From NCBI RefSeq assembly GCF_024753565.1, contig NZ_JANTPT010000004.1:1-64000 (forward strand): 64,000 nt of DNA, written 5' to 3'. The position numbers and the translations under genes were made by a program. The stretch's first letter is position 1. Every line of letters begins with the position of its first letter. Source of the stretch: Mechercharimyces sp. CAU 1602 (GTDB taxonomy: Bacteria; Bacillota; Bacilli; Thermoactinomycetales; JANTPT01). Below, piece by piece: positions 9,865 to 21,486 of the stretch. The notes beneath the pieces were generated by a model. That model was given only the letters and a program-made list of their open reading frames with translations, searched no databases and was not told the origin of the DNA.

Positions 9865-10471
9865 ATGGTGAGATACTTATGTGCGATTTCAGGGGTTTCA
9901 CGCTCAGGATATTATCGATATCATTCTCTAGAAGCAAGAGAACAAAGAAAGCAGAAAGAGGAAGCAGACGAGAAGTTAAGAGAAAATATCCTGAAAGCCT
10001 ATCACTTTAGAAAGCGTAACAAAGGAGCTCGCCAAATCAAAATGACCTTAGAGGGCCAGGATCGACCAATGAGATTCTAGCCTATCATGTTTCTGATCGC
10101 ATCACATTAGATATCGCAACGGTTACTCTGACAAAACTAAAAGAGAATAAAAAAGTGAAAATGGCAGAAGGGGCGTTTATTCATTCTGATCAAGGAGTTC
10201 ATTACACAAGTCCTATATATCAGAAGATGGTCAAAAAATACAGATTCGGACAACCTATGTCAGACGGGGAAATCGTTGGGATAACGCACCACAGGAATCG
10301 TTTTTTGGTCATTTTAAAGATGAGACCTATATCAAGCAATGCGAATCCTTGGAGGACTTAAAAAGAGAGGTGAAGAGCTATATGACCTACTACAATCACT
10401 ATAGACACCAATGGAATTTAAAGAAGATGAGCCCTGTTCAATACAGAGATCATCTTCTTAAGACTGCCTAG
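9865..10471 (+). pseudogene. IS3-family OrfB transposase, broken
   Basis: The N-terminal part reads VRYLCAISGVSRSGYYRYHS, typical of OrfB, then breaks after the KGARQIKM region with a stop at 10078-10080. About 100-150 residues of the DDE core, including the first catalytic Asp, are missing. The frame resumes with FIHSDQGVHYTSPIYQK (second Asp) and shifts by one base after QPMS (near 10263) to give WDNAPQESFFGHFKDE (catalytic Glu) and a normal C-terminus. It is not expected to be active. Confidence 0.8.
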
Positions 10472-10682: not shown

Positions 10683-11882
10683 CTAAATTCTATTTTCCCT
10701 AACAGGCTCTGTAATAATTTTTATATCCTGAACTGCGCTCTCCGCCTTAGTTACTGCATCCTCAGTGTTTTCCCCAGTAGCAATTAAACAACCTACCCTA
10801 TCAAAAGAGTGGAATATTTCAGTAACGGTATCTTGCTCATTCAATTTTAATTCTATAAATGGAATCGACGGATCTTGAGAGACTCTCTCTATTCCTGAAA
10901 TACTAAGAACTCGCCCTGGAGCAGGAGCAAAGAACCGGATGGCTGCTCCACTAGTAGCACGGGGTGGCTTAAGCCAAGGAGAAATAATTCCAGCCGTCCA
11001 GGCTAAAAACAGCGTAAGCATATTTTCTCCATAAGCATACTTATATAATTCATTAATTTTATCACCGCCTAATCTATTATGTGACTCCACGATACGAGGA
11101 CCTTCAGGGGTAAGAAAAAGTTCTGTATGAGATGGACCTTCCTGTAAGCCTACGAGATCTAAAAATGATTTTACATACTCTATGATTTGATACTGCACCC
11201 TACTAGGGAGTAAACTGGGCATCGCATGCCCACGCTCTACAAAATTGGGAAATAGCACTTTATCAGTAATTGCTAAAACCATATGTTTACCATTAAAGCT
11301 AAATGACTCTACACTAACTTCAATACCACGTAAATACTCTTCTAACAAAAAGGTCGGCAGTTTCTCTAAAATAATGGGAGCGAGACTTTCTAAATCCTTC
11401 CTACTCTTTATTACAAATACATCCCGACTACCATTCCCATCTAAAGGTTTTACAATAAAAGGAAAGGGAAACGAGTATAAATCTTTTATAGATGATCCTA
11501 TTCTGTATTTACAGGATGGAAAATGCGATAACTGAAGCAAAGATCGCATCTTCCCTTTGTCTTGAAGTGTTTTAACTGTGTCAACAGAGTTTCTTTTAAT
11601 ACCCATCATCTCTTCACATTGGGCAGCAGTAATTAATGCTTCCTCAACAAATGAGACTACTCCATCAAGAGGGGATTCTTGATGCATCCTTTTTATTAAC
11701 GAAATGATAGAGGTAGCATCATGTGTATCTAATACATATACACGATCAGCTAATTTGTAATGGTGTGAGCGTAAATGTTCCCTCTTCTGAATTAATATCG
11801 CTTCTATTCCAAGTTGATTAGCTTGCTCTAAAACATCATTTCGCGTACCGATAAATACTAATCGTTTATGCTTCTTTAACAT
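10683..11882 (-). CDS. ATP-grasp amino-acid/peptide ligase of the RiPP-like operon
   Basis: A 399-aa ATP-grasp enzyme of the BacD/carnosine-synthase-like type: N-terminal pre-ATP-grasp domain (about 1-110), ATP-binding FPFIVKPLDGNGSRDVFVI (about 150-170), LLEEYLRGIEVSVESFS (about 200-215), and EGPRIVESHNRLGGD with the metal-binding Glu/Asn. The C-terminal 100 residues form the extra lid domain seen in PurK/BacD relatives. These enzymes join a carboxylate to an amino group using ATP. Starts at 11882 after GAGGAAG and overlaps the MFS gene end by 17 nt. As the last gene of the operon it may add an amino acid to the processed product, or make a dipeptide; this is inferred. Confidence 0.75.
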   Translation of the reverse strand: MLKKHKRLVFIGTRNDVLEQANQLGIEAILIQKREHLRSHHYKLADRVYVLDTHDATSIISLIKRMHQESPLDGVVSFVEEALITAAQCEEMMGIKRNSVDTVKTLQDKGKMRSLLQLSHFPSCKYRIGSSIKDLYSFPFPFIVKPLDGNGSRDVFVIKSRKDLESLAPIILEKLPTFLLEEYLRGIEVSVESFSFNGKHMVLAITDKVLFPNFVERGHAMPSLLPSRVQYQIIEYVKSFLDLVGLQEGPSHTELFLTPEGPRIVESHNRLGGDKINELYKYAYGENMLTLFLAWTAGIISPWLKPPRATSGAAIRFFAPAPGRVLSISGIERVSQDPSIPFIELKLNEQDTVTEIFHSFDRVGCLIATGENTEDAVTKAESAVQDIKIITEPVRENRI

Positions 11883-13158
11883 AAGGCTTCCTCACTTCAT
11901 CCTTTGTCGTCCTAAGAACCATTAACCCAATGAAAGTAACAACCAGAATAAATATTCCATGGGATGCATATAGCCAGCGTTGAGAAAACACTTCGCTTAA
12001 GTAGCCCATTACAATATATATTACCAGTGAAATCGAAGTAACAAAGGTTGTAAATACTGAATGTACTCTTCCTTGATACACGTTATCAACCGTTTGTTGA
12101 ATCGTTGTTATATATAATATTCTCACTTGGAATGTTAACCCGATAAAGAAATACCCTATGATAGCTACCCATAGATGCGAGGAAAAAGCAAACATAAGAA
12201 TACTTAATCCTAAAAAACCCATTCCTGCTATCATAGTAAAATTCCTTCCTGCACTTTTTGTAATAGTCGTTAAGTATAATCCCCCCAACACACCACCTAC
12301 TGCGAAAGACGCATCGATATAGCCAAATCCATCCGCTCCCACCTCTAAAACATATTTAGAAAATGAGGGTAGCAATACATTGATCAGGCGCAACGTGATA
12401 GGAAAAGTTAAAAGGAGGGTATAGAGAACAACAATGGATCGGTGACTTTTAAGATAATGTACACCATCTACTAAATCTGTTTTATAGTTCATCCACAGCT
12501 CATTTAATTTATAAGAAGACGTACTGGGACTAACTTTTTTATTCTTTCTCATTTTTGATAAGCAAACAGCAGAGAGGATGAACGTTACTCCATTTATAAC
12601 CATAACCCAAATGGGTGAGTAAAAAGCAACCACTATCCCGCCGATACCCGTACCAATAAGAGCACCCGCTTGTGCAGTTACTTGTGTTGTCGTATTTGCA
12701 GTTAGAAGTAACCGTTCAGGAACCACTTCCCTAATAAGTGCTATCACAGTTGGTTGAAAGATGATATCACCTATTGAAAGGCAAAATGCCATGAGATAAA
12801 GATGCCACACCTCCAATTGTCCAACAAAATAAAGGGCTGGAACAGAGAACAAGACCATCGCCCGAAATATGTCCATTAAATAAGCTATTTTTCTTCTATC
12901 GATCCTATCAATAATAACTCCGGCAAAAGGGGATACAATCAACCCTGGTACAGTTGAGCAAATGAGAAGTATTGCTACTGACATACTCGTGTTTGTCATC
13001 TCAAGTACAAGCCAACTATTAGCGATAAACTGCATACCAGTCCCTAGAAATGAGATGGAAGTACCTAAAAAGTAAAGGAGATAGGCTCTTATAGAAAGAA
13101 CCTCTCTCCTTTCACGCCAAGCAGAAGATTTTAAACCTCCTTTTCGATGAAATACCAC
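11866..13158 (-). CDS. MFS exporter of the RiPP-like operon
   Basis: About 430 aa with 12 predicted hydrophobic helices and the loop FAGVIIDRIDRRKIAYLMD between helices 2 and 3, the signature A-like region of drug:H+ antiporters (MFS_3 / enterobactin-exporter-like). The listed start is a GTG inside the end of the preceding gene (28-nt overlap). A strong AAAGGAGG lies just downstream of it without a standard start codon in frame, so the true start is uncertain and could be up to about 20 codons later. Placed between tailoring genes and the ligase, it probably exports the product. Confidence 0.75.
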   Translation of the reverse strand: MVFHRKGGLKSSAWRERREVLSIRAYLLYFLGTSISFLGTGMQFIANSWLVLEMTNTSMSVAILLICSTVPGLIVSPFAGVIIDRIDRRKIAYLMDIFRAMVLFSVPALYFVGQLEVWHLYLMAFCLSIGDIIFQPTVIALIREVVPERLLLTANTTTQVTAQAGALIGTGIGGIVVAFYSPIWVMVINGVTFILSAVCLSKMRKNKKVSPSTSSYKLNELWMNYKTDLVDGVHYLKSHRSIVVLYTLLLTFPITLRLINVLLPSFSKYVLEVGADGFGYIDASFAVGGVLGGLYLTTITKSAGRNFTMIAGMGFLGLSILMFAFSSHLWVAIIGYFFIGLTFQVRILYITTIQQTVDNVYQGRVHSVFTTFVTSISLVIYIVMGYLSEVFSQRWLYASHGIFILVVTFIGLMVLRTTKDEVRKPYVKEA

Positions 13159-13610
13159 TTCATCACTTCCTTCGACCAGTCAGGTTGAACGACATCTCCA
13201 ATTGGACCAAATTCACGCATATATGGTTTTATATCTAACACAGGTGTACCATCAATAGCGTCAAGAGATTTAACAGTCAATGTTAGCTTCTCCACTTTTA
13301 TCAGTTGACAGCGAGAAACTCCTATGAAATTGGGACGCGCTTTCGCCCGTTGTGAAAACACCCCTACCTGCGGCCATTTCTTTTGATTTCTTGGGTGCCT
13401 TGCACCTAGATTAACCTTTTCTTTAGGAACACGATGCATATAAAAGACCACTTCGATATGAGAAAAGTCTTCAATACCCTTAATGGATAATTCATCAAAT
13501 TGCTGCTCATCTAGTTGGATAGTTGACTCAATGCCTCCCCAAAAATCATCTTCCATATCTTTTCGCGGTGAAGATACTCGACCAATTGGATTTAACACGA
13601 TCTCTCCCAT
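13131..13610 (-). CDS. TrmO/TsaA-like SAM-dependent methyltransferase
   Basis: 159 aa matching the UPF0066 beta-barrel family (TrmO, VirR): opens VLNPIGRVSSPRKD, core GIEDFSHIEVVFYMH, then VGVFSQRAKARPNFIGVSRC, LDAIDGTPVLDIKPYMREF. TrmO N-methylates t6A37 in tRNA. A copy inside a peptide-modification operon is unusual and hints that this one may act on the operon's product instead (inferred). The gene lies 16 bp after the tautomerase-like gene and overlaps the exporter gene. Confidence 0.75.
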   Translation of the reverse strand: MGEIVLNPIGRVSSPRKDMEDDFWGGIESTIQLDEQQFDELSIKGIEDFSHIEVVFYMHRVPKEKVNLGARHPRNQKKWPQVGVFSQRAKARPNFIGVSRCQLIKVEKLTLTVKSLDAIDGTPVLDIKPYMREFGPIGDVVQPDWSKEVMKWYFIEKEV

Positions 13611-13626
13611 TTCGCAACCCCCATTT

Positions 13627-13974
13627 TTAGGTCCAAATAGTTCCTCTAGCTAAAAGGTGACCAGACGTAACGCGTCTTACGGTAATGAAAACTTCATCTG
13701 GTGAACAGTAAAAAGATTTCGATATAACCTCTTGTACTCTGAATAAAAGGTGATGAATTTGTTTTTTACTATATATTTCTTTACAGACTATGTCTACAAT
13801 TGGTGCCGCTCTTTCTTTCTCCCATCCAGGTTTATATGCAAAAGAGATCGAGTGCCATAATACCCAAGCATGGTTCGGCGGCAACTGAAGAGAGCAGAGA
13901 GCTTCCTCCGCTATTTTTTCTAACAAACCACTAGGAGGATTTCCTTCCTTACTATACAGATGAATGATTGGCAT
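13627..13974 (-). CDS. Tautomerase-superfamily-like protein (115 aa)
   Basis: Begins MPIIHLYSKEGNPPSG, so removal of Met would expose Pro-1, the catalytic base of the 4-oxalocrotonate tautomerase superfamily. A second half (LLFRVQEVISKSFYC, then VFITVRRVTSGHLLARG) resembles the second beta-alpha-beta unit. Length suits a two-unit MIF/cis-CaaD-size protein. This is a family-level guess from the N-terminal pattern and repeat-like layout. In the operon it could tautomerise or hydrate an intermediate. Confidence 0.45.
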   Translation of the reverse strand: MPIIHLYSKEGNPPSGLLEKIAEEALCSLQLPPNHAWVLWHSISFAYKPGWEKERAAPIVDIVCKEIYSKKQIHHLLFRVQEVISKSFYCSPDEVFITVRRVTSGHLLARGTIWT

Positions 13975-13992
13975 AGATACATCTTCCCTCTA

Positions 13993-14763
13993 TCACTTTT
14001 GTCCAATTATTAGTAATGTGTTTATAGATAAATAAAACTCACCATTTCGTTCAGTAATATTCATCTCTTCTAATTGAGTCTGGGGTAATTGAGAAATAAC
14101 TTTTTTAATCCTGTCGTTAGCCCCAGCTCCTGAATCTGCAATCTCGCACCACCTATGAGTAGCTAATCCAGAAGGAAACTCACACAAGCCCCGATAGACA
14201 CTCACATTTTTCAAACCGGCTTTGTTAAAAAAACCTTGCCATTCTTTTGCAGTATAGCTGCGTACATGCGTTGGATCATGAATCGTTTCTAGTTGATGAT
14301 TCGTCTCATCTAATTCAACATCTTCATATCCTTCTAAATCAATGATGGCAACTTTCCCCTCTTTCTTAGCTATTCTTGCCATTTCCTTAACTGCCAGCTG
14401 AATATCGTAGAAATGGTGTGCAGCTAAACGAGAGGTAACCAAGTCAAAGCTACTATCGCTCAAGGATATATTTTCAGCATAATCTTGCACAGCTTTCGAT
14501 GGAATCTTCTTTTCATTCGCTAATTTAACAAAATTTTCTAACATGCGTTCAGAGGGATCAACACCGACCAAATATTTTGCTCTCCCAGAAAAAGATATCC
14601 CTAGATGACCCGCTCCACAAGCAACATCACAAATAGAGTCCATCCAATCATTTTCAAGCAAGCGATGAAGAAGACCGATAGTAGGGCTAGTACGATGAAC
14701 CTCGCTTGTAAGGAAATGCTCTGCTAAATGGTTAAACCGTTTCGCACTTCTTTTGTCTATCAT
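13993..14763 (-). CDS. Class I SAM-dependent methyltransferase (UbiE-like)
   Basis: 256 aa. SAM motif I is ICDVACGAGHLGISF (about residues 38-52), followed by LVGVDPSERMLENF (motif II acid), FDLVTSRLAAHHFYD (motif post-I/III) and EMARIAKKEGKVAIIDLE. This is the Methyltransf_11/UbiE pattern, generally C- or O-/N-methylation of small molecules. Substrate unknown. It follows the hydrolase gene after a 143-bp gap and leads the second half of the operon. Confidence 0.75.
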   Translation of the reverse strand: MIDKRSAKRFNHLAEHFLTSEVHRTSPTIGLLHRLLENDWMDSICDVACGAGHLGISFSGRAKYLVGVDPSERMLENFVKLANEKKIPSKAVQDYAENISLSDSSFDLVTSRLAAHHFYDIQLAVKEMARIAKKEGKVAIIDLEGYEDVELDETNHQLETIHDPTHVRSYTAKEWQGFFNKAGLKNVSVYRGLCEFPSGLATHRWCEIADSGAGANDRIKKVISQLPQTQLEEMNITERNGEFYLSINTLLIIGQK

Positions 14764-14906
14764 TTAAAATCTCCCCTCTATCGTAGGGTAAGAATCGACG
14801 ACGCAGGTATAAGTAACGGATCATCTCTTACCTTCAACTCTTTAAGAGTAGCTGTTCAGCAGTGTCTGTCTTCTTTATCAGGCACTGCTGATCCCACTTA
14901 TTTGTC

Positions 14907-15617
14907 TTATTTCTTGACGGCTTTATCCCTCATCATTAAATGAACGATGTCCCCTACCTTTTGATCTGGAAATTCATTGGTTGGACCTTCCTTGGCTAAC
15001 GTGTGGCCATATCCAAGTAATATATGAGGTGTTACCGCTGAAAATCCAGCGTCTTTCAGGTTTTGGACCGTCCAAGGGATATATTCTTCAGGGGATATAA
15101 TTTCAATTGAGTTTAAATCCTCACCGTATCCAATGTAATCTTCTGACCCATAAATAAGATGGAGTGGCTTATGATATCGCCTTTTTTGAGATGCATCCGT
15201 TGGTTCAAAAACTGCTCCAATAAGAATCATTCCAGCACCAGGTAATTCAGGAACATCCAAGAGAACATGAGCCCCCAATGACACCCCTAGATAAACCAGC
15301 GTATGTTCTAAACTGGCATGGCGAATAACTTCTCTTAAGAGACTCATACGAAGATGAAGGTGATGATCGTCTGCTGGCTCATCTAAATTAGAACGTAGGG
15401 GATGATCAAATTCGATTATCCCAACATTTCTTTGCATAAGCTGATTTGTGACTTGATTATAAAATTCGAGTTCCCCTTCCGCTCCATTTTCATCAAGCTT
15501 ACCAAATTGTCCCGATGGGGAAATTAAAACAGAACAACCTGAATACTGCTCAGGTATTCGCATTCGAATACGAGAATGGTAAGACTGAACCCGGACAGTT
15601 GAAATGGTTTCGAACAC
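14907..15617 (-). CDS. Alpha/beta-hydrolase-like protein (236 aa)
   Basis: A GVSLGAH nucleophile-elbow motif (G-x-S-x-G) around residue 125, a preceding oxyanion-type strand (CSVLISPSGQFG) and a late HILLGYGHTLAKEG with a candidate catalytic His fit an alpha/beta hydrolase. The start is taken as GTG 15617, one base after the stop of the HemW-like gene, because AGGAGA lies 7 bases upstream; an ATG at 15677 would overlap that gene by 59 nt without a ribosome site. In the operon it could cleave an ester or peptide bond during product release. Confidence 0.6.
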   Translation of the reverse strand: MFETISTVRVQSYHSRIRMRIPEQYSGCSVLISPSGQFGKLDENGAEGELEFYNQVTNQLMQRNVGIIEFDHPLRSNLDEPADDHHLHLRMSLLREVIRHASLEHTLVYLGVSLGAHVLLDVPELPGAGMILIGAVFEPTDASQKRRYHKPLHLIYGSEDYIGYGEDLNSIEIISPEEYIPWTVQNLKDAGFSAVTPHILLGYGHTLAKEGPTNEFPDQKVGDIVHLMMRDKAVKK

Positions 15618-15618
15618 C

Positions 15619-17070
15619 TTATACTCTCCTACAAATAGGCTCACTGAACGAACCAATCCGCTGATGAAGATAAACACTAATTATTTCTTCATGAAGAGAT
15701 TCACCATCCAACGTAGGGATAAAAGCGTCACTTGTTTGCTCAATTAACCCTTTGCTTCTTAGATCTTCAAACACATCTTTATAGGGAGCATCACTTAGTA
15801 AATCCACACCAAATTGTTCGAGATATCTTTTAAAAACGATAGGTTGATTTGACTTAAAGTTAAATCCTAATGTAGTAGAAACCGCTTCATGCTCAGTCAA
15901 ATTACGGCCAAAAGATAAAGGAACCTGCTTACTCTCCTTCATATGTTCAACATAAGCATTAATATCAGATATGTTATGTGTTTGGAGGATTTCATTCTTC
16001 CCACCGGTTAACCAACCATATGCCCCAGGACCAAATGCAATCATGGAGTCGTATCTTTGCCATTTATTCCGTGATACACGTGGAATATTCCCTTCTGGAT
16101 AAACCCCAGGTTTGCTCCACCAACCACATGGACTGGGATGATACCCAAACTCCAAAAAGACTTGTAAGACAGCTTCTCTCATTTGATAAGTTTCATCTAG
16201 CGTGGGAAACAAGCCTTCTCTTTCCAATCTCTCCCTATGTTTTGGAACATTCCATAAAGACCGATTTCCAATCCCCATACTTTGACGATCTGCATTTCGA
16301 AGTCGATATATCGTTATGGTAGGTACACCTAGTTCACATAAAACACGAATATCATTAGCAACGCTTTGTGGAGTTTGAAATGGCAAACCAAACATGATAT
16401 CTACGTTAAAAGGTTTCTCTGTTGCTAAAAGCTTGTTAATAGCATCTAGTGACATTTTACTATCGTGCTTACGACCAACAAATTGATTAACTTCATCTTG
16501 TAAAGATTGAACACCCACACTAAATCTATTAAACCCAAGGGAAATAGCTTGTTCCAATTCATCATTCTGATAGTTATCTGGATTACCCTCTAAGGAAATT
16601 TCGCAGTCTGGAGTTAAATAATAATTTTCTCTTACATGATCCATGATTTTTGATAATTGTTCAGCTTTTAAAAGAGAACCCGTTCCTCCTCCAATATAAA
16701 AAGATTCTATCCGCGCTTTTGGTAACCAGGGTACACGTGCTAAATAACGATTAGACTCTTCGATCAGCAAATGAGTCCACTCATTCAAAATCTCATCATT
16801 TCCTTCTTTGTTTGGAAGGAGCTTCTTTACATAGTTACAGAAGTGACAAATATAAGAGCACAAGGGAACATGGAAATAAAGATGAGCCGGCTTACCATAA
16901 CCATCATGCTCAACATACCGTTGAAATAACTCCTCGGATGATAACTTTGCTCCATAATTTGCAGTAACATTAATATTGTAATTGTCGCGGTCAATTTGCA
17001 GTTCTGGATGACGTTCCAAAAGCTTACCTAAATTTAATTCACCTGTCGAGGTAAATGTATGACTTTTCAT
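15619..17070 (-). CDS. HemW/HemN-like radical SAM enzyme
   Basis: 483 aa of the coproporphyrinogen-oxidase-like radical SAM branch. The cluster motif is LCSYICHFCNY (CxxxCxxC, about residue 70), then YIGGGTGSLL (GGE-like SAM loop), EGNPDNYQNDELEQAISLGF, NRFSVGVQSLQ and VDIMFGLPFQT. A HemN-type C-terminal domain follows (GPGAYGW, TLGFNFK). Members include HemN, the haem chaperone HemW, and class C methylases of natural-product pathways. The start overlaps the stop of the SPASM gene (TAATG). Next to a RiPP-type precursor and a second radical SAM gene, a tailoring role such as methylation or a two-SAM reaction is more likely than haem synthesis. Confidence 0.75.
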   Translation of the reverse strand: MKSHTFTSTGELNLGKLLERHPELQIDRDNYNINVTANYGAKLSSEELFQRYVEHDGYGKPAHLYFHVPLCSYICHFCNYVKKLLPNKEGNDEILNEWTHLLIEESNRYLARVPWLPKARIESFYIGGGTGSLLKAEQLSKIMDHVRENYYLTPDCEISLEGNPDNYQNDELEQAISLGFNRFSVGVQSLQDEVNQFVGRKHDSKMSLDAINKLLATEKPFNVDIMFGLPFQTPQSVANDIRVLCELGVPTITIYRLRNADRQSMGIGNRSLWNVPKHRERLEREGLFPTLDETYQMREAVLQVFLEFGYHPSPCGWWSKPGVYPEGNIPRVSRNKWQRYDSMIAFGPGAYGWLTGGKNEILQTHNISDINAYVEHMKESKQVPLSFGRNLTEHEAVSTTLGFNFKSNQPIVFKRYLEQFGVDLLSDAPYKDVFEDLRSKGLIEQTSDAFIPTLDGESLHEEIISVYLHQRIGSFSEPICRRV

Positions 17071-18371
17071 TAATATTCACTCCTTTTCCCTATTAGAGTC
17101 AATCCTAATTCATTCTTCTGTCTTTCTTCCCAATAGCCCCTCGTAAGCAGCATAAACTGTTTAATATACTCTGTTGCACCGCAACCTAGTTCATCTTTGG
17201 AAACATTTTTTGCTAGTGGAGGACATCGAAACTGACACCAGATATCTGACTGATATATCTCACAGTTTTGGCATGACTTGAAGTCGTCAAAAGTAATTGA
17301 GCGAAAGTCATCAAAGCCATCTTCCCAAATCAATTGAAAAGGATCCTCTTTTATATTTCCTCCCAAATACATGCCATTACTCATACAGTTGCTACAAGGA
17401 TAAGTGTTTCCTGAACTATTAATATAAACTACTGAACGACCGCACTTTTCTTGACCTGTTGCTTCTTCCAAACGTTGAGCAAAGTTAATAGTCTGAACAG
17501 AATAAATCTCATCCTCGGCATCTGCGGTAGACAGATCCTGATCATCTGGTCCTTGACTGAAACGATCCATACAGCGTTTATAAATATCAAATACCTTATC
17601 AATATCTTCTTGTTGCAAAAGAATATCGGGATGTAAAAGCGCCCGTCCAATGGGATGCGTCTCCAGCCATTGAGGCCGTGGATATCCGTTATCTACACAC
17701 CATTGAAAGATTTCTTCAACATCATCTAAGTTATTCCGATGAACAGATATAGCCGTCCGTAAACTATGTCCGTACTTGTCCATCCATTCAAATCGTTTAC
17801 GTAATTTGGGAAAATCCATCCCTCCCCTAATCGTACGTTCTGGATCGGCGGTATCAAAGCTAATAAAAAATGAAACTCCTGGAGGTAATTGAGCTAACTT
17901 TTCTTCAGTAATTAATAATCCATTAGTAAATACTTGAGTCAAAAAGGGCTTACTCATAGCATGACGAATGATTGGCACTGCATCTTTATGCGAGAAGACC
18001 TCTCCTCCAGTAAGAAAAACCTGTAATACTCCCATATCAGCCAACTGATCGATGAGAGAAAAAATCTCCTCCGTTGACATCTCATTCGGTCGCTTTACTG
18101 CAGAATCAGCATAACAATGCTTGCACCTAAGGTTACAAAGATTTGTTATCTCTATAAATGCAATTACGGGAGAACTCAGATGAAATTTGTTTAAGTCCAC
18201 AACCGATTCTTCCAAGATATACGAATCGAAATCTATATCTGTTATAGTAATATCTTGATTATGTAGAGATGTAATTGTATCTTCAAACTCGGGCTTTAAC
18301 AGTTCAACCCTACCATCAGGTAGCATTGCTACAATGCCGCCCATACTCTTCTGATAAGGAATCTGATTCAT
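17070..18371 (-). CDS. Radical SAM/SPASM peptide maturase
   Basis: 433 aa. An N-terminal ~65-residue region resembles a peptide-recognition (PqqD-like) extension. Then comes the radical SAM core with EITNLCNLRCKHCYAD (CxxxCxxC) and LTGGEVF. The C-terminal SPASM/Twitch region is rich in Cys: CGRSVVYINSSGNTYPCSNC, CQNCEIYQ, WCQFRCPP and LGCGATEY, enough for two auxiliary Fe-S clusters. Such proteins cross-link or otherwise modify ribosomal peptides (AlbA, PqqE, MftC, SuiB). AAAGGAGT precedes the ATG. It is the first enzyme gene after the 31-codon precursor. Confidence 0.85.
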   Translation of the reverse strand: MNQIPYQKSMGGIVAMLPDGRVELLKPEFEDTITSLHNQDITITDIDFDSYILEESVVDLNKFHLSSPVIAFIEITNLCNLRCKHCYADSAVKRPNEMSTEEIFSLIDQLADMGVLQVFLTGGEVFSHKDAVPIIRHAMSKPFLTQVFTNGLLITEEKLAQLPPGVSFFISFDTADPERTIRGGMDFPKLRKRFEWMDKYGHSLRTAISVHRNNLDDVEEIFQWCVDNGYPRPQWLETHPIGRALLHPDILLQQEDIDKVFDIYKRCMDRFSQGPDDQDLSTADAEDEIYSVQTINFAQRLEEATGQEKCGRSVVYINSSGNTYPCSNCMSNGMYLGGNIKEDPFQLIWEDGFDDFRSITFDDFKSCQNCEIYQSDIWCQFRCPPLAKNVSKDELGCGATEYIKQFMLLTRGYWEERQKNELGLTLIGKRSEY

Positions 18372-18388
18372 AAGAAAACTCCTTTTAT

Positions 18389-18411
18389 AAGGGCAGTTTG
18401 AAACTGCCCTT
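18389..18411 (-). terminator. Hairpin between precursor and maturase genes
   Basis: AAGGGCAGTTT / AAACTGCCCTT is a perfect 11-bp inverted repeat with one middle base (the loop opens to a few bases). It starts 9 bases past the precursor stop and is followed on the minus strand by ATAAAAGG rather than a T-run. Likely a partial terminator or RNA-stabilising stem that keeps precursor mRNA above enzyme mRNA. Confidence 0.55.
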
Positions 18412-18419
18412 AATTTCAG

Positions 18420-18515
18420 TTATTTCTTAACGCTATGACCAGCACCAACTGCAGATAGAACAAGACCTTGCTGAGACTTTTTAATATGAATGGTTGCTAA
18501 TTTCTTGTCTTTCAT
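18420..18515 (-). CDS. Candidate RiPP precursor peptide (31 aa)
   Basis: ATG 18515 is preceded by AAAGGAAGATATCTC. The peptide begins MKDKKLATIHIKKSQQGLV and ends SAVGAGHSVKK. A charged, Lys-rich front half (leader-like) is followed by a small-residue segment, Leu-Ser-Ala-Val-Gly-Ala-Gly-His-Ser, then Val-Lys-Lys. It contains no Cys, Tyr or Trp, so thioether or aromatic cross-link chemistry is excluded. His27, Ser28 and the aliphatic residues are the candidate sites. Its own promoter lies 30-60 bp upstream, and a hairpin plus the SPASM maturase gene follow. I do not recognise the precursor family. Confidence 0.65.
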   Translation of the reverse strand: MKDKKLATIHIKKSQQGLVLSAVGAGHSVKK

Positions 18516-18547
18516 GAGATATCTTCCTTTCTTTGTAGGATGTAAAT

Positions 18548-18577
18548 ATTATCTTATAATGAATATTTACTTGTCAA
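18548..18577 (-). promoter_or_regulatory. Sigma-A-type promoter of the RiPP-like operon
   Basis: On the minus strand TTGACA (18577-18572), an 18-bp spacer and GATAAT (18553-18548). The predicted start is about 25 bases before the precursor ATG. Confidence 0.65.
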
Positions 18578-19302: not shown

Positions 19303-19944
19303 TCATTGGGTATGAGCGATTAATTTGTAATTCTGTATTCGATAGATATGATCACATAAGAAATGAATATCTTCTTGATTATGACTGGTTAAAATAATAG
19401 TCCGTCCTTCTTCTCTAAAGGTGAGCAACAACTGACGGATATTGTCCACACTCTCTTGATCTAAGGCATTAAAGGGCTCATCGAGAATCAAAATTTGCTG
19501 TTCCTCCATTATTGCTTGAGCGAGAGCAAGTTTTTGTTTCATACCAAGAGAATAATTTTTCACCTTTTGTTTTGCGTGCGGCTGAAGACCGACTAATTTC
19601 ATGACTGAGCTAATCTGTTCATCTGAGATTTGTTGCTTAATCATCGCAAGAGCTTTTAGATTATCAAAACCTGTGAGATTATCCATATAACCTGGACGGT
19701 CAATGATGATACCAAAACCATCGGGAAATCGTTTGTTTTTTCCTAGCTCCATCCCTCTCACCCGAATAGTGCCCTCATCTGGAAAGACAAAGCCGCACAT
19801 CATTTTAAACAACACTGACTTTCCGGAGCCATTACTGCCAACAATACCGTAGATATGTCCCTTTTCTATTGTTAAGTCTATATTTTCAAATAAGGTATTC
19901 CCTTTATATGATTTACTAACGTTTACGATCTCAATTAAAGCCAC
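19303..19944 (-). CDS. ABC transporter ATP-binding protein
   Basis: About 213 aa with Walker A GIVGSNGSGKS, Q-loop region near IIIDRPGYMDN, signature YSLGMKQKLALAQAI, Walker B ILILDEPFNALD and H-loop ILTSHNQED. This matches the small CcmA/BcrA-like ATPases that drive ABC-2 type exporters. The second GTG (19944) is preferred because AGAAGG lies 8 bases upstream. Last gene of a three-gene operon after two membrane proteins. Likely exports or excludes a peptide or other amphiphile; the substrate is unknown. Confidence 0.85.
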   Translation of the reverse strand: MALIEIVNVSKSYKGNTLFENIDLTIEKGHIYGIVGSNGSGKSVLFKMMCGFVFPDEGTIRVRGMELGKNKRFPDGFGIIIDRPGYMDNLTGFDNLKALAMIKQQISDEQISSVMKLVGLQPHAKQKVKNYSLGMKQKLALAQAIMEEQQILILDEPFNALDQESVDNIRQLLLTFREEGRTIILTSHNQEDIHFLCDHIYRIQNYKLIAHTQ

Positions 19945-19962
19945 TGTGATCACGCCTTCTGC

Positions 19963-21486
19963 TTAGATTTGTATATCTTTCTTGTTAAGTAGGTAATAAA
20001 TAATGATCGCTTCGATAATAAGCGTACAGGATAAGACGAAGGTTGAATGTCCCCATTGAATACCCACAGCAGCAAGTCCTAAAGCATTTTGACCGACAGG
20101 GAGAAGGTACCCGATATTAAGCCCTGGGAGCATTAGCACGATAAGTGCTCCTACTAAAAACAAGCTATGACTTCCCTCTTTACTGCTCCATGAAACAATA
20201 AAAACCATCAACGTGTAAACAAACAATTGTAGAAAGCCGACGATAAAGTATTGATAAAACAACATCGGCAACGAAAGGTCTGGGAAAACTCGCAATTCCG
20301 CCATGGGTGAAAATCCAAACAACCACAGGATTACTATGGATATAAGAAACAATATGAGCAGAAACGCGAACGTTGCGAGCACTATTTTCCGTAAACAAAC
20401 ATACGCCCATTTGTTTAGAGATTGGTAGCGTATAATCTTGTAAAAGCCTATTTCAGACAACTCTCTTTGAAAATAGAGTTGTATAAAGTAAAGAAAACCA
20501 AAAAATACAATTAAGTAGTACATGAACGAAAGAATCTGAAAGCTTTCATTGGTAGAGCCATAAAACGTAAGTAGCCACGCATCCCAAATCGTAATCTCTT
20601 CTTGCTTCAGACTATACGAAGTGGAAATAACCCCAGATATGCACAAAAATATATATAAGATATAACCACCCATAGAGGAGATGAGAGTAATAAAACTTCG
20701 CAGATTTAGATCGATATGATGTAATACAAACAGAGCAAGGATTAGTAACATACATGGGACCATAAAAACAAAATACGGTGAGCCTAGATTTGTTGCTCCA
20801 TGCGCGAGCGTAAGATAGTTTGCCAATGAAATCCATTCTAAAGTTGGGGGGAAAATTTTAAATGATATAATAGCCCCCAAAAACACTGCTACTCCCATCA
20901 TGTATATGAATGTTTTGCTTTTCGCTATGGTGTAGGCAAGAGCAAGCAATAGGTGAATGAAGGATAAGACCAAGGCACACAATATTAACTGCCCCAAAGC
21001 TGCAAAAACCGGACGATCGAAGAACATTTGTAACGTCCATGAAACTGTATTAAAATTTGATTCAACTTGACTTAATTGACTCCAACCGCTTTCCGCAGGA
21101 ACTCCGATAGTGAGAAAAAACGAAATGGACGTCCATACAAATAAGAGGATAAATAAAGAGGATGAAAAGTCTTTCTGAACCCGATACACCCACTTTTTAT
21201 AGGAGCCCACTCTGATCAGGGTGTGATACTCAAAATCAAGGATAATATTCCGTATCATAATATAAAGAATAAGAGGGAGAATGAAGAATATGATTAAATA
21301 AATCTCGCTTAACAAAGTTAAAATCATATCCCACTGATTAAAGTGCATTTGATTTTGCAACGCCTCGTTCATTAACTCTCTCTTTATATTTAATCCGAAT
21401 ACAAAAATTACTATAGAAATAAATATCCACCTATATGAAATGAATTTATGTAAGAAGGTGGAGCATTCATATTTTAATTTTGTCAT
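19963..21486 (-). CDS. ABC-2 type permease-like membrane protein (507 aa)
   Basis: Twelve or so hydrophobic helices with a short N-terminal basic segment (MTKLKYECSTFLHKFISYRW), length about twice a usual ABC-2 permease. The internal layout looks like two permease halves of about 250 residues each. The ATG follows directly on the stop of the preceding gene (TAAATG). Partner of the ATPase at 19303. No family name can be given from sequence alone. Confidence 0.65.
   Translation of the reverse strand: MTKLKYECSTFLHKFISYRWIFISIVIFVFGLNIKRELMNEALQNQMHFNQWDMILTLLSEIYLIIFFILPLILYIMIRNIILDFEYHTLIRVGSYKKWVYRVQKDFSSSLFILLFVWTSISFFLTIGVPAESGWSQLSQVESNFNTVSWTLQMFFDRPVFAALGQLILCALVLSFIHLLLALAYTIAKSKTFIYMMGVAVFLGAIISFKIFPPTLEWISLANYLTLAHGATNLGSPYFVFMVPCMLLILALFVLHHIDLNLRSFITLISSMGGYILYIFLCISGVISTSYSLKQEEITIWDAWLLTFYGSTNESFQILSFMYYLIVFFGFLYFIQLYFQRELSEIGFYKIIRYQSLNKWAYVCLRKIVLATFAFLLILFLISIVILWLFGFSPMAELRVFPDLSLPMLFYQYFIVGFLQLFVYTLMVFIVSWSSKEGSHSLFLVGALIVLMLPGLNIGYLLPVGQNALGLAAVGIQWGHSTFVLSCTLIIEAIIIYYLLNKKDIQI

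Follow-up and report, generated by a model that had tools for sequence, protein, structure and literature searches.

Here, we describe an operon in a 64,000-nucleotide stretch of the Mechercharimyces sp. CAU 1602 genome (C4:1-64000, the whole stretch analyzed and called the window below; host genome size, 2.93 Mb) that very probably yields an undescribed modified-peptide natural product by means of two different radical S-adenosylmethionine (radical-SAM) enzymes. On the minus strand, the operon runs from 18515 to 10683 and comprises a gene for a small peptide, a hairpin, and eight enzyme or transporter genes, with neighboring genes mostly overlapping or almost touching. Comparison of orthologous loci leads us to assign a probability of roughly 0.85 to the reading that this is an operon for a ribosomally synthesized and post-translationally modified peptide (RiPP), in which a SPASM-type radical-SAM enzyme acts on the small peptide, and points to a genuine family of radical-SAM RiPPs that has apparently not been described. 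This reading is well supported because a small open reading frame (ORF) of the same family, with an invariant glycine and Val-Gly-Ala (VGA) and a trailing hairpin, recurs across the loci. An earlier note, made from this DNA alone, had proposed a new RiPP class; all the elements that it placed in the window were found there, along with a gene it had left unnamed, for a tautomerase-superfamily protein (13627-13974). Of that proposal, an apparently undescribed RiPP family stands; novelty at the level of a chemical class is unproven, no product having been identified, and a characterized look-alike of the Val-Gly core exists in the TVGG motif of TvgA.

The precursor family and its SPASM enzyme

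The elements at the 5′ end of the operon are as follows.

18548..18577, minus strand: possible promoter, TTGACA-18 nt-GATAAT, matching 11 of 12 consensus bases
18420..18515, minus strand: precursor peptide, 31 residues, core unit G-x5-V-G-A; family conserved in all orthologous loci, with a ratio of nonsynonymous to synonymous change (pN/pS) below 1
18388..18412, minus strand: hairpin with a perfect 11-pair stem right after the precursor; z -4.7, with equivalents in L026, L024, and L132
17070..18371, minus strand: radical-SAM/SPASM enzyme, 433 residues, with the CxxxCxxC motif and SPASM cysteines; PF04055 and PF13186 above cut-off
15619..17070, minus strand: HemN-type radical-SAM enzyme, 483 residues, class C methylase-like; HutW/ChuW is the best model, with HemN and NocN as matches in PDB

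The peptide, MKDKKLATIHIKKSQQGLVLSAVGAGHSVKK, begins with ATG, and its ORF is preceded by the ribosome-binding site AGAAAGGAAG. Orthologues of the SPASM enzyme were identified in another genome of the window's order (G027, locus L026; 74% identity), in Photorhabdus sp. CRCIA-P01 (L024) and P. thracensis (L025; 60–63% for the two), and in a 6.8 Mb Burkholderia-like genome of Pseudomonadota (G1584, L132; about 59%), where a flanking gene encodes what we take to be a Burkholderia-type porin. At each of these loci, a relative of the window peptide was the top match among the small ORFs (524 in L026, 501 in L024, 694 in L025, and 582 in L132), so that a small, sequence-conserved precursor gene stands beside a SPASM maturase in five loci from three lineages, four of them intact and one (L025) broken. 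The earlier note had staked its proposal on two points, both of which came out in its favor: a conserved small ORF accompanies the maturase homologue at every orthologous locus, and the precursor matched no Pfam or NCBIfam family. No description of the peptide or of the operon family was found in a literature search that mainly reached openly readable journals.

The precursor of L026, MKTRKMSRIHMKKGKEGVVQAVVGAAHTVRNK, lies directly upstream of the SPASM gene and, like that of the window, contains one core unit. Directly downstream of the SPASM gene lie the precursors of Photorhabdus (81 residues, ...KKFTRIHMDLSADDGITLAMVGAATSLANEENRHSITLKPTKEGITLAMVGAASAALKK) and L132 (78 residues, ...NKFTRIHLDLASDGVTLAMVGAASALKQPDSRHSLVLKPTADGVSLAMVGAASAAQ), each with two core units. 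None of 5000 shuffled peptides reached the observed score for the window/L026 and L026/Photorhabdus pairs, and 2 of 5000 did for window/Photorhabdus. The pN/pS values of 0.52 for the window against L026 (29 codons) and 0.25 for Photorhabdus against L132 (53 codons) indicate that the precursor family is under purifying selection. When the six core units are aligned, the only invariant positions are Gly17 and Val23-Gly24-Ala25 (G-x5-V-G-A); the residues before and within VGA read A-x-V-G-A or S-A-V-G-A, TVGG occurs in none of the units, and the N-terminal part of each unit is rich in Lys and Arg, often as R-I-H. The earlier assignment of the core to Gly-Ala-Gly-His-Ser does not hold, given that His and Ser vary or are absent in Proteobacteria, where the corresponding position is occupied by Thr-Ser, Ser-Ala, or similar residues. 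None of the precursors (window, L026, Photorhabdus, and L132) contains Cys, and the core units are free of aromatic residues, apart from His in the window and L026. The pairing of a precursor lacking Cys, Tyr, and Trp with a SPASM maturase and a second radical-SAM enzyme was correctly recognized in the earlier note.

The hairpin in the window has a folding energy of -18 kcal/mol for the stretch folded and lacks a U-run on the transcribed side. Each of the four intact loci has a strong hairpin immediately past the stop codon of the precursor (z -4.7, -4.2, -4.1, and -4.9), including those in which the precursor lies downstream of the SPASM gene; because its position tracks the precursor rather than the gene order, it would fit an uncoupling of precursor level from enzyme levels. 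No match for the hairpin was found in Rfam. The promoter noted earlier exists as a site, but such sites are about as frequent in this AT-rich region as expected by chance (5 observed vs 3.6 expected).

The SPASM enzymes of the four intact loci share 59–74% identity, and all the expected cysteines are invariant among the homologues. Among the best 25 models, the enzyme exceeded no curated cut-off for a peptide maturase. Residues 1–66 matched neither Pfam nor any PqqD or RiPP recognition element (RRE) model; in a low-confidence structure model (mean pLDDT 47.6), this part is predicted to form three strands plus helices.

The HemN-type enzyme, accompanying genes, and distribution

The start codon of the HemN-type gene overlaps the SPASM stop codon. 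The encoded protein matched the HutW, HemW, and HemN models, all below cut-off, most strongly HutW/ChuW (8.8e-53; 179.6 bits against the 400 bits of TIGR04107), with 144.9 bits against the 205.4 bits of TIGR00539 for HemW; among PDB structures, it matches HemN as well as NocN, a class C methylase. The residues of NocN that contact its two SAM molecules have been published (PMC12871812) and could be mapped onto the window protein (NocN/window: Y34/Y65, Y96/Y125, G100-T101/G129-T130, R153/R182, G157/G186, R171/R200, D196/D224, S225/T253, and R230/R258). All are invariant in the three aligned HemN-type sequences, with Thr in place of NocN S225; R230, which stacks on the adenine of SAM, is reported not to be seen in HemN (PMC12871812). 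The retained contacts favor one-carbon transfer over HemN-type decarboxylation, short of proof. A housekeeping HemW role was ruled out because the genome holds another HemN/HemW-type gene elsewhere. The earlier label "HemW-like" needs correction: scoring below the HemW cut-off and keeping the NocN residues, the protein resembles a class C methylase of the HemN family more than a HemW.

The remaining genes of the operon are the following.

14907..15677, minus strand: alpha/beta hydrolase with GxSxG, Asp, and His; weak Abhydrolase match
13993..14763, minus strand: class I SAM methyltransferase, UbiE-like; PF08241
13627..13974, minus strand: tautomerase-superfamily protein, 115 residues, N-terminal Pro; assigned from a structure model and the invariant Pro
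13131..13610, minus strand: TrmO-like protein (TsaA domain); PF01980 at 1.8e-27
11866..13158, minus strand: predicted major facilitator superfamily (MFS) exporter; PF07690, PF05977; present in L026, not beside the proteobacterial operons
10683..11882, minus strand: ATP-grasp L-amino acid ligase with LAL_C2 domain; PF13535, PF18603; present in L026

Invariant residues of the hydrolase are G131, S133, G135, D180, and H225, and its real start probably lies downstream of the listed GTG. Structures of fused 4-OT, MIF, and cis-CaaD align with the tautomerase model (mean pLDDT 80) at Z of about 9–11, and the Pro following Met1 is invariant among its homologues; with the modeled beta-alpha-beta fold and a predicted catalytic Pro1, the protein is assigned to the tautomerase superfamily. 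The "methyltransferases" of the earlier note correspond to one class I enzyme and the TrmO-like protein. The latter, the sole protein of its kind in the genome, barely exceeds the TIGR00104 cut-off (93.6 vs 93.25 bits), and its co-conservation with the operon suggests a role other than tRNA (t6A37) methylation. A TrmO-like relative on the Streptomyces nigrescens plasmid SNP1 (L130:7746-8276, with no annotated gene there; 51–54% identity), located outside any such operon, is as close to the operon proteins as these are to one another, so that the operon may have recruited a methyltransferase of general function. The nearest solved structures to the ligase are BL00235, then BacD.

All four intact loci encode the SPASM, HemN-type, and TrmO-like proteins, the tautomerase, the hydrolase, and a class I methyltransferase, with identities of 53–77% for the HemN-type enzyme, 49–60% for the TrmO-like protein, 34–53% for the tautomerase, and 22–43% for the hydrolase. 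The exporter and ATP-grasp genes named in the earlier note are both present; among the loci they are confined to the window and L026, the two from its order. In L024 (10242-11480) and L132 (14059-15243), a methionine gamma-lyase-like pyridoxal phosphate (PLP) enzyme gene on the opposite strand adjoins the methyltransferase gene; the two proteins are 52% identical to each other, score below curated cut-offs, and could represent tailoring, resistance, or a chance neighbor. The copy in P. thracensis (L025:9995-14772) is decaying, with a broken SPASM frame, an in-frame TAG in the HemN-type gene, and transposase genes on both sides.

The system is rare: a sample of 399 genomes from the window's class contained 2 carriers, and the window genome is the sole carrier among 398 sampled from its phylum. 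Photorhabdus alone carries it among 198 genomes from its family and among 369 from its class, and is joined by G1584 among 398 genomes of its phylum; within genera, the carriers are 2 of 12 Photorhabdus genomes and 1 of 58 from the genus to which G1584 belongs. These loci are an undercount because the patterns for scanning genome contigs were taken from the window protein alone, so that relatives such as L026 would be missed. No member was found among viral contigs with the SPASM, HemN-type, and TrmO-like profiles, or among phage and plasmid records, and PADLOC returned only superfamily-level matches for the locus. On plasmids, the nearest proteins are SPASM relatives from Mesorhizobium and Sinorhizobium (28–31% identity), whose loci were rejected as members because they represent a different system with a radical-SAM enzyme of 640–680 residues, PLP enzymes, and a TldD or PqqD-like protein. 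These loci (L027:9085-14298 and L028:8495-13252) encode an uncharacterized pair of radical-SAM enzymes, one SPASM-type and the second a large one, and contain PLP decarboxylase- or racemase-like genes; in the Sinorhizobium plasmid, a PqqD-like protein precedes the pair.

In the surroundings of the window operon, broken IS3-type transposase-like pieces lie just past its 3′ end (9865-10471, plus strand), which would fit mobility of the region. Upstream, on the same strand as the operon (19303-21486, minus strand), are genes for an ABC-transporter ATPase and a 507-residue membrane protein, probably unrelated to the operon because none similar adjoins that of L026.

Proposed pathway and alternative explanations

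Under the RiPP reading, the Lys/Arg-rich N-terminal part of each unit, often R-I-H, would serve as the recognition sequence, and the SPASM enzyme would direct 5′-deoxyadenosyl radical chemistry at an unactivated aliphatic position, most likely the Val of VGA, by dehydrogenation or ring closure; by analogy, we consider the chances even that the invariant Val is the site. Class C enzymes attack sp2 carbons and the shared core side chains have none, so that an earlier step must create one. The route proposed for TvgB, which leads to cyclopropylglycine in TVGG, passes through beta,gamma-dehydrovaline (PMC9062424), and with this precedent the working model is therefore that the SPASM enzyme oxidizes Val and the HemN-type enzyme, with two bound SAM molecules, then adds a one-carbon unit to the sp2 carbon so created; for this transfer, the chances appear slightly short of even. 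Release and tailoring would fall to the hydrolase, tautomerase, TrmO-like protein, and class I methyltransferase, and in the window's lineage the ligase would attach an amino acid to the product and the MFS protein would export it, although export of a small ligated product is a tentative proposal that we hold rather less likely than the transfer. The complete chain, from oxidation of Val in Val-Gly-Ala through addition of a SAM carbon (yielding a methylated dehydrovaline or a cyclopropane) and release of the unit to its ligation and export in one lineage, is unlikely to be right in every step, at perhaps half the chance given to the Val site alone.

The RiPP reading gains from the duplicated core units and from the placement of the precursor on the other side of the SPASM gene in Proteobacteria, and is further favored by the co-conserved core enzyme set, the invariant SPASM cysteines, the retained NocN residues, and the parallel between the Val-Gly core and the TVGG of TvgA. 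Several points weigh against it: the invariance of VGA is weakly sampled, with six core units from four intact loci; neither a leader protease nor a clear RRE domain was identified; the class I methyltransferase is non-orthologous between lineages, belonging to another subfamily in Proteobacteria (23–26% identity across lineages and 45–55% within); and the comparison with TVG covers the core motif and the gene set.

A special form of the favored explanation would make the peptide a template only, from whose VGA core a modified amino acid or very short piece is cut and ligated into an exported, bacilysin-like dipeptide antimetabolite. The closeness of the ligase to BL00235 and BacD, its position beside an MFS exporter, and the methionine gamma-lyase-like gene adjoining both proteobacterial operons, of a type that commonly serves as the target of unsaturated amino acids or in resistance to them, speak for this possibility; yet Proteobacteria lack the ligase and exporter, the window's order lacks the gamma-lyase gene, and no peptidase for single-residue excision was found, so we regard it as unlikely, if a little less so than the complete chain above. 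An intracellular redox cofactor derived from the peptide, as are pyrroloquinoline quinone (PQQ) and mycofactocin, is improbable: the very patchy distribution, the decayed P. thracensis copy, the exporter in two loci, the lack of a linked dehydrogenase conserved across all loci, and a core without Tyr or a Glu-Tyr pair outweigh a similar, if Tyr-free, logic (short precursor, SPASM enzyme, and small tailoring enzymes) and the absence of an exporter beside the proteobacterial loci. Less probable still is that the small ORF encodes a regulatory leader peptide which, with the hairpin, forms an attenuator, the enzymes making a small molecule without a peptide substrate. The window ORF does sit between the promoter and the first enzyme gene, with the hairpin after it; in Proteobacteria, however, the ORF lies downstream of the SPASM gene and encodes 78–81 residues with two core units, its amino-acid sequence and not its position alone is conserved, and the window hairpin has no U-run.

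If Val oxidation and one-carbon addition are as proposed, a ribosomal template would be used to make non-protein amino acids by a new route. Because the precursor has neither Cys nor conserved aromatic residues, the radical-SAM enzyme is left with unactivated aliphatic carbons only, the likeliest place for new chemistry, and the defined G-x5-VGA core, its four natural variants, and the small conserved enzyme set make the question directly testable.

Comparison with known systems

None of the papers searched describes a SPASM enzyme paired with a radical-SAM enzyme of class C-like type on an aliphatic core and accompanied by a tautomerase and an L-amino acid ligase. By sequence, the SPASM enzyme is best matched by the sactipeptide maturases SkfB, AlbA, and StsB, which share its fold, but it scores far under every curated cut-off and its precursor is Cys-free; sactipeptides and ranthipeptides were ruled out, there being no core cysteines for thioether bonds in the window, L026, Photorhabdus, or L132. 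PQQ and mycofactocin resemble the system in combining a short precursor with a SPASM enzyme and differ in that there is no Tyr or Glu-Tyr core here, no separate PqqD-like protein, and a different set of partners. They were ruled out, as were aromatic cyclophanes and streptide, since the core units are devoid of Trp, Tyr, Phe, and Glu-Tyr. The exclusion of sactipeptide, mycofactocin-type, and aromatic cyclophane chemistry in the earlier note is upheld on these grounds.

The HemN-type enzyme has in common with the class C methylases NocN/NosN, ChuW/HutW, and C10P the HemN-family domain, CxxxCxxC, and residues contacting two SAM molecules (PMC12871812, PMC6050322), including Tyr34, Tyr96, Arg153, Asp196, and Arg230 of NocN. 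As with C10P/C10Q, a class I methyltransferase is encoded in the same operon (PMC6050322), and the cyclopropane of CC-1065 is made by such a pair of a HemN-like enzyme and a class I methyltransferase (PMC6050322). The known class C substrates, however, are aromatic or porphyrin sp2 carbons, whereas the shared core here has aliphatic side chains only, and the HemN-type enzyme exceeds no curated cut-off. With the bacilysin operon (BacD, BacE), the window operon shares an ATP-grasp L-amino acid ligase adjoining an MFS exporter; the anticapsin enzymes are absent, the ligase is nearer to BL00235 than to BacD, and the building block would derive from a ribosomal peptide.

The TVG pathway of Halomonas anticariensis, in which TvgA and TvgB give rise to cyclopropylglycine in a TVGG core (PMC9062424), likewise involves a Cys-free, repeat-bearing precursor, an invariant core Val-Gly, one SPASM enzyme, and no need for an aromatic residue (PMC9062424). 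A TVGG-repeat pattern aimed at TvgB relatives gave 91 stretches in viral contigs. The repeating TVGG motif characteristic of TVG is not present in the six core units described here, and TVG has a dioxygenase and transporters, in contrast to the HemN-type radical-SAM enzyme, tautomerase, TrmO-like protein, and methyltransferase that set the present operon apart.

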